This document shows positions 30,919-59,713 of a stretch of DNA of 64,000 nucleotides, piece by piece. The notes under the pieces were generated by a model. The model did no database searches. It was not told the DNA's origin and saw only the letters and a list, made by a program, of their open reading frames with translations. The DNA is taken from the NCBI RefSeq assembly GCF_022012475.1, contig NZ_JAKLWS010000008.1, positions 1-64,000 of the forward strand, read 5' to 3'. Position numbers and translations under genes: made by a program. The stretch comes from Rhodohalobacter sulfatireducens (lineage in GTDB: Bacteria; Bacteroidota; Rhodothermia; Balneolales; Balneolaceae). The stretch's first letter is position 1. Each line of letters begins with the position of its first letter.

Positions 30919-30952
30919 ACCTGTCTGACCTTATGAAGCGGTCTGACGGGTT
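30919..30952. repeat. REP-like hairpin, copy A
   Basis: AACCTGTCTGACC, a short apex, then AAGCGGTCTGACGGGTT. It is the same family as the hairpins that flank the RAYT gene at 57664 and 58341, with a diverged left arm. Confidence 0.7.
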
Positions 30953-35702: not shown

Positions 35703-37682
35703 ATGCAAACAAAAAAACAAAACAAACGACTTTTGTGGTGGTCCATACCGTTGATAGCTGTGCTGGGAATTACACTCTATGGATGCCCTTCACAGCAAAA
35801 TTTAGCAGGTTCCAGTGACGCCGCTCAAAAAGTATATGTAGCTCCCGGAGAGCACGACGAGTTTTACGGGCTGTTCTCAGGTGGTTATAGCGGTCAGTTA
35901 ACGACCTATGGTCTCCCCTCCGGACGACACCTCTATACCATACCTGTATTTTCTCAGGCACCGGTAAGCGGATATGGATACTCCGAAGAGACCAAACCGA
36001 TGCTTCAAACAACCCACGGGTTTATTCCCTGGGATGATGCCCACCACCCGGAACTTTCACAAACAGATGGTGTTCCCGACGGACGCTGGGTATTTATCAA
36101 TGCGAATAACACTCCACGTGTGGCTCGTATAGATCTCGGTAATTTTCAAACGGCTGAAATTATCGAAATTCCGAATGCCGCCGGAAACCATGCCTCCCCA
36201 TTCGTAACGGTAAATACCGAATACATATCAGCAGCTACACGATTCAGTGTACCTATGGATGAAAATACTCTTGAAAATGAGGATGTAGCGATCTCCTCCT
36301 ATGCCGAAAACTTCAAAGGAACCCTTTCTTTCATCAAAATCGGTGAAGAGGGTGAAATGAGTATCGACTTCCAGATTTTGGTACCGGGATTCAACTACGA
36401 TCTGTCTCATGCCGGCAAAGGCCCGTCTGAAGATTGGGCGTTTTTTACCAGCTATAACACAGAAGAAGCCCATACCCTGCTTGAAGTGAATGCTTCCAGG
36501 AACGACAAAGACTTTATTGCCGCCGTAAACTGGCGAAGAGCGGCAGAGTTGGTTGCCAACGGCGAGGGACGTGAAATTCCGGCTGAGCACTACCGCAATT
36601 ACATAGATCATGATGAACACAGGGCAAAATCTGAGCTGATTGAAACCGTTACTGTTCTTGATCCCACAGAAAACCCGGGCATCATCTACTATCTGCCTAC
36701 GCCGAAATCACCACATGGTGTGGATGTAGATCCTTCCGGACGATACATTGTAGGCGGCGGAAAGCTGTCTTCTGTTCTACCGGTTCATTCATTTGAAAAG
36801 ATGATCCAGGCCATTGAAAACGAAGACTTTGAAGGCGAAGTTGATGGAATTCCGGTTCTGAATTACGATTCTGTTATTCAGGCTGAGGTTGAAAATGCCG
36901 GTATCGGTACACTTCACACCGAGTTCGACGGAAACGGTTATGCTTATACAACTGCTTTTATCTCCTCCGAAATTGTAAAATGGAGCCTGGAAACGTTTGA
37001 GGTTGTCGATCGGATCGATACTTACTACTCACCGGGTCACCTGATGATTCCCGGCGGAGATAGTCGTCAGCCCGCAGGAAAATACCTGGTAGCATTAAAC
37101 AAAATTACCAAAGACCGCTACCTGCCAACAGGACCTGAGCTGTTCCACTCGGCTCAACTGATCGACATTTCGGGAGATAAAATGGAACTGTTGCTCGACT
37201 TTCCTACAGACGGTGAACCTCATTACGCCCAGGGAATTGCTGCCGATATTGTGAAAGAACGGCAGGTAAGGTTCTACCCTCTTGAAGAGAACAATCACCC
37301 CGACGCTGTGAAAAGTGAAGCGGATACACGAGTCGTGCGCGAAGGTAATGAAGTACATGTTTATATGACGACTATCCGAAGCCACTTTGCACCGGATAAT
37401 ATTGAAGGCATACAAGTGGGAGATAAAGTGTACTTCCACGTAACCAATCTCGAGCAGGACTGGGATGTACCTCATGGTTTTGCCATGCTGGGTGCTCAAA
37501 ATGCCGAGTTATTAGTTATGCCGGGTGAGACCAGAACCTTAACCTGGGAACCGAAAAAAGTGGGGGTATTCCCGTTCTACTGTACAGACTTTTGCTCAGC
37601 TCTTCACCAAGAGATGCAGGGTTATGTACGGGTATCCCCAAGCGGATCTGATGTGCCAATTTCCTATGGAACTGGCGACTAA
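35703..37682 (+). CDS. nosZ: Nitrous-oxide reductase, clade II (Sec type)
   Basis: Reduces N2O to N2 in the periplasm. The leader (KRLLWWSIPLIAVLGITLYGC) is Sec-type, not Tat, and ends in a lipobox-like LYGC, so the enzyme may be lipid-anchored. CuZ-site histidine segments include DDAHHPELS, GNHASPF, DLSHAGKGP, SPHGVDVDP, GTLHTEFDG and SPGHLMIPG. The CuA site is C627, C631, H635 and M638 in YCTDFCSALHQEMQGY. At 659 residues it is complete. It is followed by its maturation genes; no nitrite or NO reductase is in the window, so the cell may reduce N2O only. Confidence 0.97.
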   Translation: MQTKKQNKRLLWWSIPLIAVLGITLYGCPSQQNLAGSSDAAQKVYVAPGEHDEFYGLFSGGYSGQLTTYGLPSGRHLYTIPVFSQAPVSGYGYSEETKPMLQTTHGFIPWDDAHHPELSQTDGVPDGRWVFINANNTPRVARIDLGNFQTAEIIEIPNAAGNHASPFVTVNTEYISAATRFSVPMDENTLENEDVAISSYAENFKGTLSFIKIGEEGEMSIDFQILVPGFNYDLSHAGKGPSEDWAFFTSYNTEEAHTLLEVNASRNDKDFIAAVNWRRAAELVANGEGREIPAEHYRNYIDHDEHRAKSELIETVTVLDPTENPGIIYYLPTPKSPHGVDVDPSGRYIVGGGKLSSVLPVHSFEKMIQAIENEDFEGEVDGIPVLNYDSVIQAEVENAGIGTLHTEFDGNGYAYTTAFISSEIVKWSLETFEVVDRIDTYYSPGHLMIPGGDSRQPAGKYLVALNKITKDRYLPTGPELFHSAQLIDISGDKMELLLDFPTDGEPHYAQGIAADIVKERQVRFYPLEENNHPDAVKSEADTRVVREGNEVHVYMTTIRSHFAPDNIEGIQVGDKVYFHVTNLEQDWDVPHGFAMLGAQNAELLVMPGETRTLTWEPKKVGVFPFYCTDFCSALHQEMQGYVRVSPSGSDVPISYGTGD

Positions 37683-37743
37683 ACCGCATGAGTAAATTAT
37701 CAACTTTGAGAGGGGTTTTGATCGACCCCTCTCTATTCACCGA

Positions 37744-38343
37744 ATGTTAATAAGAGAGAGGATTCTCATGAAAAAGACTGGAAAATATATCATGGCGATA
37801 GCTGCCCTCCTGCTCGGATTTGTTTTCATCACTCCTATTTGGACGATTGATATGGAAGCCCCGCAATACCCGGAGGGAATCGGAATGGAGATATCCATCA
37901 ACAAGATTGAAGGGAAGTCAAAGCAGGATTTACAAAACATAAACGGGCTGAATCACTATATCGGTATGAAACCGATTACCCCCGAATCTATTCCTGAGTT
38001 AAAAATTATGCCATGGATCTTCGGATTCTTAATAGTTTCCGGCCTTGGAATTGCAGTTTGGGGCAATCGAACAGCACTCTTATTCTGGATCATTCTGTTT
38101 ATACTCCTGGCAATTGCCGGCCTTGTAGACTTTTATCTCTGGGGATATGACTACGGACACAATCTTGATCCCAATGCAGCTATTAAAATTCCGGGTATGA
38201 CCTACCAGCCACCGCTCATCGGGTCTAAACAGTTGCTGAATATCAATGCGACATCTCTTCCCGGCTTTGGATTTTATGTTTCTCTTCTAAGCATGGGCCT
38301 GGCAACATATGTCTACTGGAGAAGCAAGCCCGACACTAAATAA
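37744..38343 (+). CDS. Membrane protein of clade II nos clusters
   Basis: 199 residues with about four membrane helices (near 15-35, 87-106, 109-131 and 175-193) and a periplasmic loop carrying NGLNHYIGMKPITPESIPEL. The likely start is the internal ATG at 37768 (MKKTGKYIMA). Similar proteins stand between nosZ and nosL in Bacteroidota-like nos clusters, and the conserved Asn-His and Met residues could serve copper handling. Function is not established. Confidence 0.72.
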   Translation: MLIRERILMKKTGKYIMAIAALLLGFVFITPIWTIDMEAPQYPEGIGMEISINKIEGKSKQDLQNINGLNHYIGMKPITPESIPELKIMPWIFGFLIVSGLGIAVWGNRTALLFWIILFILLAIAGLVDFYLWGYDYGHNLDPNAAIKIPGMTYQPPLIGSKQLLNINATSLPGFGFYVSLLSMGLATYVYWRSKPDTK

Positions 38344-41640: not shown

Positions 41641-41673
41641 ACCCGTCAGACCGCCTGGAGCGGTCAGATGGGT
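41641..41673. repeat. REP-like hairpin, copy B
   Basis: ACCCGTCAGACCGCC, TGG, AGCGGTCAGATGGGT. Its reverse complement reads ACCCATCTGACCGCT then CCAGGCGGTCTGACGGGT and aligns closely with the copies flanking the RAYT gene at 57664 and 58341. It lies between nosY and the haem A synthase gene. Confidence 0.8.
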
Positions 41674-56320: not shown

Positions 56321-57169
56321 ATGAATCTACACCGCTTAATTTTTGATTTCTATGAAGGTATTTTCTTATTCACTGCAATTCTCATTATTACTCCCCTGAT
56401 CCCTCCTCAACAGATGAATGCTCAAGTTCCTGTTGATCGCCAGGAAGAAATTGAAGTGATGATTCTTGGCACTACTCATTTTGGAAATCCAGGTCAGGAT
56501 GTGATTAATATTGAATTTCCGGATGTACTTCAGCCCAAATACCAAAGTCAGATCGACAAAGTAATAGAGGATCTTTCTGAGTTTCAACCTACAAAAATTG
56601 CCCTCGAAGCCCGGCCCGATTATAAAGCTAAAGTAGACAGCATGTATAATGCTTACATAACCGGGGAACATTCTCTCTCGAGAAACGAAAGGCAACAACT
56701 GGGTTTTAAATTGGCAGGCAAAATGAATCATGATCAGGTTTACTCAATTGATCATGATGGAGAATTTCCATTCCAGTCAGTTCTTGATTTCGCTAAAGAA
56801 CATCAACCGGAATTTGTTGAACAGATCGAAAAGCTTAGCAAATATGTAGAAAACAGAAACCAGGAGTTAGTCAGCAGCAATACCATCCCTGAAATTCTTA
56901 GAAAGAAAAACAGTCTCGAATATCTTGAAGTCCAGAGACATTTCTATGCAGAAACAGCATCCGTTGGAAATGATACAACTTTCGTTGGTGCAGGTTTAGT
57001 TAGCAAATGGCATGAGCGAAATATCAAAATTTTTTCAAGCCTGAGCCAAATTGCAAAACCGGGCGATCGCATTATCGTAATCTTCGGCTCCGGACACGCT
57101 CCGCTTCTACGATATTTTGTTAAATCAGACCTGCAGATGAAGCTGGTTGAACCAAACGACTACCTGTAA
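56321..57169 (+). CDS. DUF5694-like exported protein
   Basis: 282 residues with an N-terminal hydrophobic segment (about 14-32) that is a signal or anchor. EVMILGTTHFGNPGQDV and ALEARPDYKAKVDS at the start of the domain, with VIFGSGHAPLLRYF near the end, recall the TraB/GumN/EreA-like group, whose Gly-His-Glu residues suggest a hydrolase, and match DUF5694. No reaction is established. Confidence 0.75.
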   Translation: MNLHRLIFDFYEGIFLFTAILIITPLIPPQQMNAQVPVDRQEEIEVMILGTTHFGNPGQDVINIEFPDVLQPKYQSQIDKVIEDLSEFQPTKIALEARPDYKAKVDSMYNAYITGEHSLSRNERQQLGFKLAGKMNHDQVYSIDHDGEFPFQSVLDFAKEHQPEFVEQIEKLSKYVENRNQELVSSNTIPEILRKKNSLEYLEVQRHFYAETASVGNDTTFVGAGLVSKWHERNIKIFSSLSQIAKPGDRIIVIFGSGHAPLLRYFVKSDLQMKLVEPNDYL

Positions 57170-57174
57170 GAATT

Positions 57175-57636
57175 TTATTGAACCAACCCAGACCGATCCC
57201 TCGGATTCTGAAAATATTTAATCACGTTTGTAGCACCGTAAAGCAAAAGAAATGCAGCGATAAAGTATGCCACAGAATCGGGATTCATGATGATTAATAC
57301 GGCAATAATCAGAGTTAGGAATCCCATGATGGAAAACTGGAATGCCATCAAGAGTATCACACCAAAAAAGCCAAGAAAAACAGCAAAGGTGATAGGAATC
57401 ACCTCTGGAAAAACGAAAATGAGTACTCCCGTTATCATTGGAAAAGCTGCAATGATGGCGGGTGTTCTGGCGTACATGAAAACAAGTCCAAGAGCGATGA
57501 GATATCCGCCTGCTATCAGGTAAAGAAAGTTTGGATAGGTGAGCGTTAAAATGCCGGTTACCAGCGCCAACAAAGCATTCAGAATTCTACGCTCCCTGGA
57601 TTTGTGTTCAATATTTATGTGAAAGTATTGTTTCAT
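57175..57636 (-). CDS. DUF308 (HdeD-like) membrane protein
   Basis: 153 residues with about five or six short helices (for example ILNALLALVTGILTLTYP, LYLIAGGYLIALGLVFMYA, AVFLGFFGVILLMAFQF). The repeated helix pairs are typical of DUF308/HdeD proteins, some of which aid acid tolerance. It converges with the DUF5694 gene, leaving only 5 bases between stops. The C terminus is short and polar. Confidence 0.78.
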   Translation of the reverse strand: MKQYFHINIEHKSRERRILNALLALVTGILTLTYPNFLYLIAGGYLIALGLVFMYARTPAIIAAFPMITGVLIFVFPEVIPITFAVFLGFFGVILLMAFQFSIMGFLTLIIAVLIIMNPDSVAYFIAAFLLLYGATNVIKYFQNPRDRSGLVQ

Positions 57637-57663
57637 TTTATTCTTTATTCTTTTTGAAAAGTT

Positions 57664-57696
57664 ACCCGTCTGAACGCTCCAAGCGGTCTGACGGGT
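57664..57696. repeat. REP-like hairpin, copy C (after the RAYT gene)
   Basis: ACCCGTCTGAACGCT, CCA, AGCGGTCTGACGGGT. The stem has one mismatch. It lies 8 bases beyond the RAYT stop codon. Confidence 0.88.
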
Positions 57697-57704
57697 CCAG
57701 GTAT

Positions 57705-58304
57705 CTACGAATATATTTGCTTAATATGTTCTTCGGGAATCGTTTGATTCGACATTTTAACAAATTCATTTACCCCACTTGGCAACTCTAAATTTTTTAT
57801 TCCCAATTCTCGATTACAAAGTTTCCCATTTCTTAAACCTGCATAATCCCGATACGATGAAAATTTCCAACCTGCCAGATCTTCACATATTCCGGCACGC
57901 AATGGATTCTGATGGATATAGAGAAAACATATCAACGCATAATCTGGATCATCAATTTTTTGGGATTTTGTTTTACTCCTGAATAATGAACCGCTTCTAT
58001 TCTCTTGCTTATTGATGGCTTGTGTGTATGAACTCAGCAAATTTGCAATACAGCGAACTAATGAATGTTGAGGATGAGAATTCATTTTAGAACTTTCTAT
58101 ATCTTCTAAATCATCTAGGCCCTTTGTTTTAATCAACCAATGAAAATGATTCTGCATCAGGCAGTATGCAAGAATCTCACAATAATTTTTTAGTGTACTC
58201 ATCTTCTTAAGAAAATAGAGATAATTGTGTTTGCTGAAATAGATGGGTTGTCTGTTATTCCCCTGATTGTAGACATGATAAAATCTATTTGGTTGAAAGT
58301 TCAT
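57705..58304 (-). CDS. REP-associated tyrosine transposase (RAYT, IS200-like Y1 fold)
   Basis: 199 residues. The HUH motif HFH (about 53-55, in MQNHFHWLIKT) and the catalytic Tyr (about 129, in LYIHQNPLRAGI) are intact. RFYHVYNQGNNRQPIYF, NRSGSLFRSK and WKFSSYRDY fit RAYT proteins. Y1 enzymes nick single-stranded hairpins; RAYTs act on REP sequences and appear domesticated. REP-like hairpins flank this gene at 8 and 36 bases, and two more copies lie elsewhere in the window. No IS200/605 accessory TnpB is near. Confidence 0.92.
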   Translation of the reverse strand: MNFQPNRFYHVYNQGNNRQPIYFSKHNYLYFLKKMSTLKNYCEILAYCLMQNHFHWLIKTKGLDDLEDIESSKMNSHPQHSLVRCIANLLSSYTQAINKQENRSGSLFRSKTKSQKIDDPDYALICFLYIHQNPLRAGICEDLAGWKFSSYRDYAGLRNGKLCNRELGIKNLELPSGVNEFVKMSNQTIPEEHIKQIYS

Positions 58305-58340
58305 ATGCCATGTTTAAGATTTCATCTCAGTTGTTCGGGT

Positions 58341-58374
58341 ACCCGTCTGACCGCTTGAAACGTTCTGACGGCTG
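58341..58374. repeat. REP-like hairpin, copy D (before the RAYT gene)
   Basis: ACCCGTCTGACCGCTT, apex, AACGTTCTGACGGCTGGT. It is the same family as copy C and in the same orientation, with a decayed right arm. It lies 36 bases upstream of the RAYT start codon and 4 bases past the pepP stop. Confidence 0.82.
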
Positions 58375-58378
58375 GTTC

Positions 58379-59713
58379 TTACCTCATCATATCTTCAATA
58401 TCGCCAATCTCTTTCGGCACATCCGTCAAATTCTCATATCCATCTTCGGTGATGATCAGGTTGTCTTCTATTCGAATACCCCCAAAATCAAACAGTGATT
58501 TAACTTTCTCCTTATTCAGAAATTTCGATTTCTCTTCATCCTCAAGAGCCGGCTTCAGTAGGGCCGGAATAAAATAGATTCCGGGTTCAATGGTTATCAC
58601 CATTCCGGGAATGAGTTCACGACGAACACGCAGATATTTAATACCGGGCCGTTCAATACGCTCCACTCCCTTGGGATATCCACCCACATCGTGCGTATCC
58701 AACCCGAGAAAATGTCCCAAACCATGTGGGAAGAAAAGGGCAAAAATATCATTGTCCATCATCTCTTCCAGGTCTCCTTTTACAACGCCAATATCTTTCA
58801 AACCTCCCAGGATAATCCTACAGGCATTCAAATGCAGTTCTTCCATTTTCACACCGGGTTCGGTTTTATCAATAGATTTGTTTAGAGCTTCCAGAACAAC
58901 TTGATAAATTTTCGCCTGGTCAGATGAAAACTTCCCATTAATCGGGTACGTTCTCGTAAAATCAGATGCATACCCCTCATACTCAAAACCGGCATCAATC
59001 AGATACAAATCCCCGTCTTTAATCTTTTGATTATTCTCCACATAGTGCAAAATGGCACTGTTCACTCCACCTGCGTGAATTCCGGTATAGGCTGGTTGTA
59101 ATAACCCATGTTTTTCTTGATGATAATCGAAAATAGCTTTTGCTTCGTGCTCGTACATTCCCGGTTTTACACTTTTCATTACTTCTCTATGGGCGATATT
59201 ATTAACCTCAGCCGCCCTTCGCATCAAATCCAACTCATAATCGGTTTTTATGCAACGGCAATAGGTGATAGCATCCACCAGCGTATCAATTTCCAGGTTA
59301 AAATCACGGTTCAAATCTTCCAGGTATTCTGCTTGTTCTTCATCCAGGCAGTAGATCTTATCCGAATCTAATTCATTCAGTACCGACAATAACTGATTGT
59401 CGTAATGCAGGTGATCCGGCTCATATAAATCCTGGATCTCCTCCATAGGCTTGATGCGCCCGTGCCAAACCGCAAACTGCGAATCCCGTTTTGGAGTAAA
59501 CAGATGATATTCTCCAGATTTAATATCCAAAATCGCATGATAGCCAGGCTCATTCACTCCTGTCAGATACCAAAAATTGCTCTCCTGGCGGAAAGGAAAT
59601 TCATAATCGGTTGCATACCGGTACATAAGCTCCGCCCCTTTGAGATAAATAATTCCCTCTTCACTGTCTTCAAAAAGTGATAATAACTTACTTCTATGGA
59701 GTTGATTTGACAT
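58379..59713 (-). CDS. pepP: Xaa-Pro aminopeptidase (aminopeptidase P)
   Basis: A cytoplasmic metalloprotease that removes an N-terminal residue before proline. The pita-bread C-terminal domain has the di-metal ligands Asp in LIDAGFEYEG, Asp in YASDFTRTYP, His in FFPHGLGHFLGLD, Glu in VITIEPGIYF and Glu in GGIRIEDNLII. The N-terminal AMP_N domain is present (RSKLLSLFEDSEEGIIYLKG). At 444 residues it is full length. It is monocistronic. Confidence 0.95.
   Translation of the reverse strand: MSNQLHRSKLLSLFEDSEEGIIYLKGAELMYRYATDYEFPFRQESNFWYLTGVNEPGYHAILDIKSGEYHLFTPKRDSQFAVWHGRIKPMEEIQDLYEPDHLHYDNQLLSVLNELDSDKIYCLDEEQAEYLEDLNRDFNLEIDTLVDAITYCRCIKTDYELDLMRRAAEVNNIAHREVMKSVKPGMYEHEAKAIFDYHQEKHGLLQPAYTGIHAGGVNSAILHYVENNQKIKDGDLYLIDAGFEYEGYASDFTRTYPINGKFSSDQAKIYQVVLEALNKSIDKTEPGVKMEELHLNACRIILGGLKDIGVVKGDLEEMMDNDIFALFFPHGLGHFLGLDTHDVGGYPKGVERIERPGIKYLRVRRELIPGMVITIEPGIYFIPALLKPALEDEEKSKFLNKEKVKSLFDFGGIRIEDNLIITEDGYENLTDVPKEIGDIEDMMR

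Follow-up and report, generated by a model that had tools for sequence, protein, structure and literature searches.

The 64,000-nucleotide stretch of DNA analysed here (the window) very probably carries a REP-RAYT system, in which a Bacteroidota-type RAYT has a 33-nt hairpin, hairpin A, as its REP. The present copies of this hairpin are better read as remnants of earlier mobility, possibly retained as 3'-end hairpins, than as a family that the gene maintains now. We observed the fold and catalytic motifs of the enzyme, linkage of its gene to hairpin A, dispersal of the hairpin, a conserved bulge within it, placement shortly downstream of stop codons and sharing of orthologous sites. Below, G000 is the genome of the window, other G numbers are further family genomes, and L numbers are fetched loci.

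The RAYT gene (57705-58304, minus strand), encoding a TnpA-REP-like HUH/Y1 transposase, has an intact reading frame in G000 and a product of 199 aa with the motifs NHFH and YIHQNP. The HUH motif is N52-H53-F-H55, and the presumed catalytic tyrosine, Tyr129, lies within YIHQNP. H53, H55 and Y129 are invariant across a 25-row alignment of RAYT relatives, giving the HUH motif and single tyrosine of a RAYT. The best and sole NCBIfam match was REP_Tyr_transpos (NF047646; E=1.1e-14, positions 6-146 of 146), at 54.6 bits and thus below the 80-bit cut-off of this equivalog model, and Pfam Y1_Tnp scored 21.5 bits, slightly under its cut-off of 23. We predicted the structure with AlphaFold2 (pLDDT 93.2) and compared it with solved structures. 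The model aligned with 4er8, the E. coli RAYT with its REP hairpin, at Z 15.7 and rmsd 2.6 over 154 residues, and 4er8 also ranked first in a Foldseek search. The best IS608 chain reached Z 8.9 over 100 residues, so the modelled fold is of the E. coli RAYT kind and not of the IS200 TnpA kind. A sequence search of solved structures gave one match only, which was meaningless. Read from its predicted fold, the protein is a distant member of the REP-associated tyrosine transposases. The gene is present once in G000, not in the several near-identical copies per genome of IS200/IS605 elements. Four more RAYT-like matches in this genome are 28-40% identical to it, and Pfam Y1_Tnp gave 10 matches there, eight of which were fetched; the six readable ones are IS200-type proteins of 120-172 aa. 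The neighbours of the RAYT site are an M24 aminopeptidase P gene (58379-59713, minus strand), our marker for the same site in congeners, and a gene for a small protein (57175-57636, minus strand) that matches DUF3096 above the cut-off of that model and DUF308 slightly below its own.

Hairpin A lies on the 3' side of the RAYT gene at 57664-57696 and on its 5' side at 58341-58373, in the same orientation, with a T.T mismatch on the plus strand in both; the latter copy lies 5 bases past the stop codon of the M24 peptidase gene. The intact HUH/Y1 RAYT between two similar hairpins of the original prediction was thus confirmed, with the second hairpin ending at 58373 and not at 58374. The dispersed copies that it placed at 30919 and 41641 were also borne out. 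One spans 41641-41673 (minus strand, with T.T on that strand) and is intergenic, 36 bases past a gene end; the other, at 30919-30951 (plus strand), is degenerate. Eleven copies give the consensus ACCCGTC-T-GACCGCT-nnn-AGCGGTC-T-GACGGGT, that is, 7 bp, a T.T mismatch, 7 bp and a variable loop of 3, with 15-nt arms. The central mismatch reads T.T or A.A, depending on the strand. The arms noted earlier belong to real hairpins but hid this mismatch, which is conserved: pair 8/26 is T..T or A..A in 67/85 copies examined. Relative to ACCCGTCNGACCGCT-NNN-AGCGGTCNGACGGGT, the copies at 57664, 58341, 41641 and 30919 have 1, 3, 2 and 4 mismatches, respectively. One arm with <=3 mismatches matched eight times within the window, against a mean of 0.87 and a maximum of 4 in shuffled sequence; two of the eight matches (41857 and 43898) are in no hairpin, even allowing 9 mismatches. 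Folding as single-stranded DNA gave z-scores of -6.4 (plus) and -4.3 (minus) for 57664, -5.2 for 30919 and -5.1 for 41641 (both plus), and -1.3 (plus) and -3.5 (minus) for 58341, a weak hairpin on the plus strand.

In the 5.1-Mb G000 genome, the hairpin A pattern with <=3 mismatches occurs at 10 places and the reversed pattern at none. A covariance model, for which 37 copies were used, gave 36 matches at E <= 0.01 when both strands are counted, one of them partial, and these come down to at least 23 distinct places, a lower bound, with the best 150 of 1928 candidates scored. Hairpin A is not confined to the four places first noticed. The RAYT gene at 57705-58304 has copies of this genome-dispersed repeat on both flanks, as in a REPtron. 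An Rfam search of 57000-59000 gave no match, and the exact hairpin A core had 0 matches in viral contigs. The proposal of a REP-RAYT system holds on the fold, the catalytic motifs, the best match to REP_Tyr_transpos (under its cut-off) and the linked, dispersed hairpins. On another contig of G000, two opposite-strand hairpin A matches (C50:423977-424011 and 424029-424063) lie 17 bases apart and resemble a REP doublet.

Judged by its motifs, the signature of the window RAYT appears nearest to subclass 2.6, also called RAYT group 5. This type is described by Quentin and colleagues in 2018 and, as relayed there, reportedly by Bertels and colleagues in 2017. In the available text of Quentin et al. 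2018 (PMC6006769), this type is mostly from Bacteroidetes and has NH[LIV]H, WQ, YIH[QN]NP and SS motifs, with atypical hairpins that lack GTAG and have copies elsewhere. The window system agrees in its Bacteroidota host, YIHQNP, SS after the core, absence of GTAG and hairpin copies elsewhere in the genome, and its hairpins are likewise atypical. It differs in NHFH (theirs NH[LIV]H), FR (theirs WQ) and a length of 199 aa (their median 179). GT[AG]G, which canonical REPs have at the 5' foot, stood directly at either foot of hairpin A in 0/67 oriented copies, on either strand. AT[TC]C followed the T.T strand in 12/67 copies against 0.6 expected, and a mirror control at the opposite side gave 3/67. 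With nine of the 12 coming from G055 and G056, and with a test picked after the list had been seen, AT[TC]C as a guide tetranucleotide is a lead only. Our literature searches listed no publication on Balneolaceae REPs and REP-RAYT work mainly on Proteobacteria, in line with the original prediction, which called a system in this lineage with its own REP sequence worth defining; Bacteroidetes RAYTs with atypical REPs were nevertheless already described as subclass 2.6 (available text of PMC6006769). Of the described types the window system fits this one best, with differences in its HUH and W motifs.

Other known systems resemble this one in part. With E. coli TnpA-REP, as described in the available text of PMC8266576 and PMC2817692, it shares the fold (Z 15.7), an HUH motif with one tyrosine and a mid-stem hairpin mismatch, but identity in the structural alignment is 13%, and the window system has no GTAG and has direct flanking hairpins. 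Tens of hairpin A copies were found, compared with the >100 usual for REPs according to the accessible part of PMC2817692. CGTC-tagged REPs (Di Nocera et al. 2013, PMC3733652) are likewise short palindromic intergenic repeats without GTAG, and hairpin A carries CGTC in its outer arm. In the available portion of that paper, the CGTC of these repeats is an end motif that stays unpaired beside a stem of 8-9 bp, and the repeats have no linked transposase gene; in hairpin A it is paired within the 15-nt arm, and a RAYT is linked.

The RAYT would bind folded hairpin A on one DNA strand when that strand is single, and the T.T/A.A bulge probably tells the strands apart. The analogy is with E. coli TnpA-REP, for which unpaired mid-stem bases are required and which acts on one strand only (available text of PMC8266576). 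Tyr129 would then nick beside the hairpin foot, and the RAYT could move or copy hairpin A. The same-strand flanking hairpins would also permit cassette removal of the IS200/IS605 kind.

The flanking hairpins of the window are direct (T..T on the plus strand in both), not the inverted REPs of a REPtron, and published RAYTs are always between inverted REPs, as far as the available text of PMC2817692 goes. Of 22 clade loci, 18 have a direct repeat as their best flank repeat, one (G055) has an inverted repeat and three have none. Many clade RAYTs lie between other repeats, and these are often two-hairpin units that stand on either side in direct orientation. For 74 usable of 80 relatives on titled contigs, flank repeats scoring >=25 were direct in 23 and inverted in 7, compared with 0/370 and 1/370 in mismatched-pair controls. 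This lineage therefore differs from the published pattern, with both orientations occurring in it. Direct flanks lower the case for a canonical REPtron, not that for a RAYT.

Hairpin A was found by pattern in 10/92 family genomes (0 with reversed-pattern controls), with 29 copies in G068, 14 each in G043 and G056, 10 in G000, 9 in G042, 6 each in G045 and G055, 3 in G016 and 1 each in G066 and G076. The covariance model at E <= 0.1 placed it in 11/28 congeners and in none of the other 17 (best 150 candidates per genome scored; some genomes incomplete). By this model G068 has at least 39 distinct places and G066 has 3. RAYT matches of >=45% identity over >=100 residues were listed in 24/92 genomes, G000 among them, at most two per genome among the matches listed. 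By title, near relatives of the RAYT are from Balneola and Gracilimonas and more distant ones mostly from other Bacteroidota. A RAYT tree of 30 rows contained a 23-row clade supported at 100/100; in this tree G000 had no supported grouping with G055/G056. G045, G047, G064 and G065 have relatives of the window RAYT yet other repeats on their flanks, which ties hairpin A to one sublineage.

We located the RAYT site in congeners through the M24 peptidase gene, which matched in 28/28 genomes with 24 clear orthologues (>=70% identity), and measured gaps in the 16 of these 24 that also have the DUF3096-like neighbour. The RAYT at this site is intact in G000 and G055 and broken in G056; G042 retains a 52-residue remnant with an IS200-like tnpA alongside. 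G043 has two hairpin A and no RAYT there, and G045 has a single hairpin B, its RAYT relative being on a contig other than that of its M24 gene. The gaps of G068 (137 bp) and G051 (168 bp) are without hairpin A. In 8/16 genomes (G066, G057, G060, G065, G044, G053, G058 and G049) the gap is 20-49 bp, stop codon included. The 137-bp gap of G068 (locus L161) holds a different repeat, CATCCTGAACTTGATTCAGGATCT.

Hairpin A numbers do not track the state of the RAYT. By pattern, genomes with an intact RAYT at the site have 10 (G000) and 6 (G055) copies, those with a broken or remnant gene have 14 (G056) and 9 (G042), and those in which no RAYT of this clade was found have 29 (G068, the highest of all) and 14 (G043). 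Active maintenance of hairpin A by the window RAYT is thus not supported, contrary to the original prediction that a single-copy enzyme maintains the repeat family, and the expected fall in copy number in relatives lacking this RAYT was not seen. Equal frequency in relatives without any RAYT, the outcome that had been named as refuting the system, was not strictly reached: G068-like relatives do have more distant RAYTs, with nine RAYT-like matches in G068 (27-38% identical among the six listed), and those of G068 and G043 are at most 38% identical to the window RAYT among the matches listed. In E. coli, by the available text of PMC8049555, RAYT-bearing genomes hold more REPINs than RAYT-less ones. 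Because the RAYT is broken or missing in some congeners while the hairpins stay, the copies are better seen as a legacy than as a family maintained now.

The positions of the hairpins also point to age. Homology on both flanks identifies orthologous hairpin A copies: four pairs in G000 and G068, several pairs among G042, G043 and G045, and copies common to G055 and G056. Along 120 kb of sequence that is collinear in the two genomes, G068 has counterparts of the G000 copies at 30919, 41641 and 82377. The copy at 30919 has its orthologous hairpin at C22:127152 of G068, and the counterpart of 41641 in G068 consists of hairpin A arms split by an insert, a 203-bp element. In the peptidase S58 (P1 family) gene, hairpin A is an in-frame insertion in G042, G043, G045, G055 and G056; the hairpin-encoded peptide is absent from the other 12 aligned congeners, and G000 retains one hairpin arm there. 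The RAYT gene of G016 contains a hairpin A and is interrupted by one stop close to its start; REPs within the gene are described for subclass 2.4 in the available text of PMC6006769. The hairpin A population looks old and largely inherited rather than newly spread by the window RAYT. A long version of hairpin A with inner sequence between the arms (67 bp) is present at G068:C22:4655-4721.

We examined 85 hairpin A in 80 fetched stretches, covering 22 of the 29 pattern places of G068 and leaving aside the single G076 place; 12 fall within open reading frames, not all of them certain, and for 2 one side is undefined, which leaves 71 intergenic. With gene ends taken from simple ORF calls and orthologous sites each counted separately, 34/71 intergenic copies lie <=10 bp from a stop codon, against 11.6 expected and a maximum of 21 in 2000 random placements in the same gaps. 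Twenty-six are between convergent genes and only four between divergent genes. This placement, with the keeping of copies at orthologous sites and in genomes without this RAYT, speaks for a reading in which the hairpins now have a host role at 3' ends, stabilising mRNA or acting as bidirectional end signals, selection on that role keeps them, and the RAYT is incidental today. Such a role, compatible with a RAYT origin, is possible, and we hold it with less than even confidence. Purifying selection on insertions likewise gives placement past stop codons, no T tract follows the hairpins, a terminator scan of 57100-58900 passed over both flanking hairpins, and 17/28 congeners have no hairpin A. 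Covariation speaks on both sides. In an author-selected sample of 37 copies, cells changed on both sides of a pair numbered 6 against 1.9 in shuffles (1/500 reaches 6), but all six are at one pair (2/32) of 14, and by number of pairs the alignment was no better than shuffles (442/500), so that the sequence and not the shape of hairpin A is conserved.

A further alternative is that hairpin, RAYT and hairpin form an IS200/IS605-like unit that enters and leaves whole, the scattered hairpins being solo ends; we think this unlikely. IS200/IS605 elements have end hairpins that share strand polarity, and the window resembles them (IS608, ISDra2) in its catalytic core and in a hairpin on either side of the gene with the same polarity. 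Direct repeats also flank related RAYTs, and the RAYT of G045 is away from its M24 contig. The 20-49 bp sites in half of the measured genomes agree with such a unit, as do the positions of the RAYT in an M24 tree built from matched stretches, in which inner branches are weak: RAYT-bearing G000, G042 and G055/G056 fall in separate parts, and G066 shares a 100/100 clade with G000 and G068 while its site is near-empty. These near-empty sites fit cassette removal and equally fit never having been filled, and ancestral presence of the RAYT with repeated loss also explains the pattern. Unlike the many copies of an IS, the RAYT gene is single in G000, with at most two matches of >=45% identity per genome among those listed; the fold match to IS608 is clearly weaker (Z 8.9), hairpins are scattered alone, and the 60-bp flanks of the ten G000 copies show no evident relation to one another. 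Neither a target duplication nor a donor joint could be demonstrated.

It is improbable that a different Y1 enzyme, either an IS200-like TnpA or one of the more distant RAYTs, mobilises hairpin A in trans and that the window RAYT is a passenger. IS200-like tnpA genes with Pfam Y1_Tnp scores of 82-85 bits lie 173 bp (G042, locus L089) and 268 bp (G068, locus L131) from a hairpin A, and G068, with its nine RAYT-like matches, has the most copies. These are, however, 2/85 examined copies, against 6/85 inside or <=82 bp from a RAYT of this clade (in G000, G055, G056 and G016), despite the 10 Y1_Tnp matches of G000, and contig C6, which carries the best RAYT-like match of G068, has none of the hairpin A places listed for that genome. 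Chance palindromes unrelated to the RAYT gene, for which only the weak plus-strand fold of 58341 speaks, are refuted by the reversed-pattern controls (0 in 92 genomes) and by arm matches exceeding shuffles, and their probability is negligible. The tnpA genes of L089 (2382-2834) and L131 (1284-1733) are ~73% identical to each other.

Tentatively, and as a speculation that we would not put at even chances, the REP population may outlive and even outgrow its RAYT: the locus would be repeatedly emptied or broken while the hairpins stay, are inherited and have their sequence kept through host use past stop codons, with direct flanks letting the cassette leave, so that REP-RAYT would be an IS-like element half-way to a host 3'-end signal. 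For the question of how REP populations persist, the congeners offer a graded series at one site with which hairpin numbers do not keep step. This natural series is unusually clear and makes 'kept by enzyme' versus 'kept by host' directly testable, here in Bacteroidota and with hairpins lacking the GTAG guide used by studied enzymes.

GTSNSAC was considered as a wider signature of such loci. In an exploratory set, the best 80 of at least 570 relatives gathered by protein pattern, it had 171 matches in 47/80 loci within 300 bp of the RAYT relative and 22 in 13/80 at 700-1000 bp. In a hold-out of 32 loci (13 new loci outside the family and, beyond the original plan, the next 20 by rank, with one duplicate dropped), 10/32 had it near and 11/32 far, which failed the criterion set beforehand, and we withdrew the claim; the matches numbered 40 near and 13 far, mainly from locus L326, and one control motif, GASNSTC, was near in 10 loci and far in 4.

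Other hairpin families accompany these genes. The genus-g2 type has 1-4 copies in 5/92 genomes (9/15 copies at a RAYT locus), and a third type occurs in 7/92. Hairpin B (CTCGTGGCACG..., CTCGTGGCACGnCTnnnAGnCGTGCCACGAG) was found in 5/92 genomes (G042, G043, G045, G055 and G056), all of which have hairpin A too. It flanks the RAYT in G055 and G056 (loci L175 and L178), three copies in G043 are 10-21 bp from a hairpin A, and five copies at G045:C35:11590-13111 are spaced at 340-386 bp like a tandem array. In G000, locus L067 (C67:36200-39300) has a RAYT fragment at 37617-37844 and a strong hairpin, AGATCCGCGAAGTTTTGGAAACTTCGCGGATCT, at 37961, and locus L006 (C45:28045-31389) has an IS200-like tnpA between identical GGTTCCAAAGGTCTCCTTTGGAACC hairpins at 1244 and 2063, 819 bp apart.
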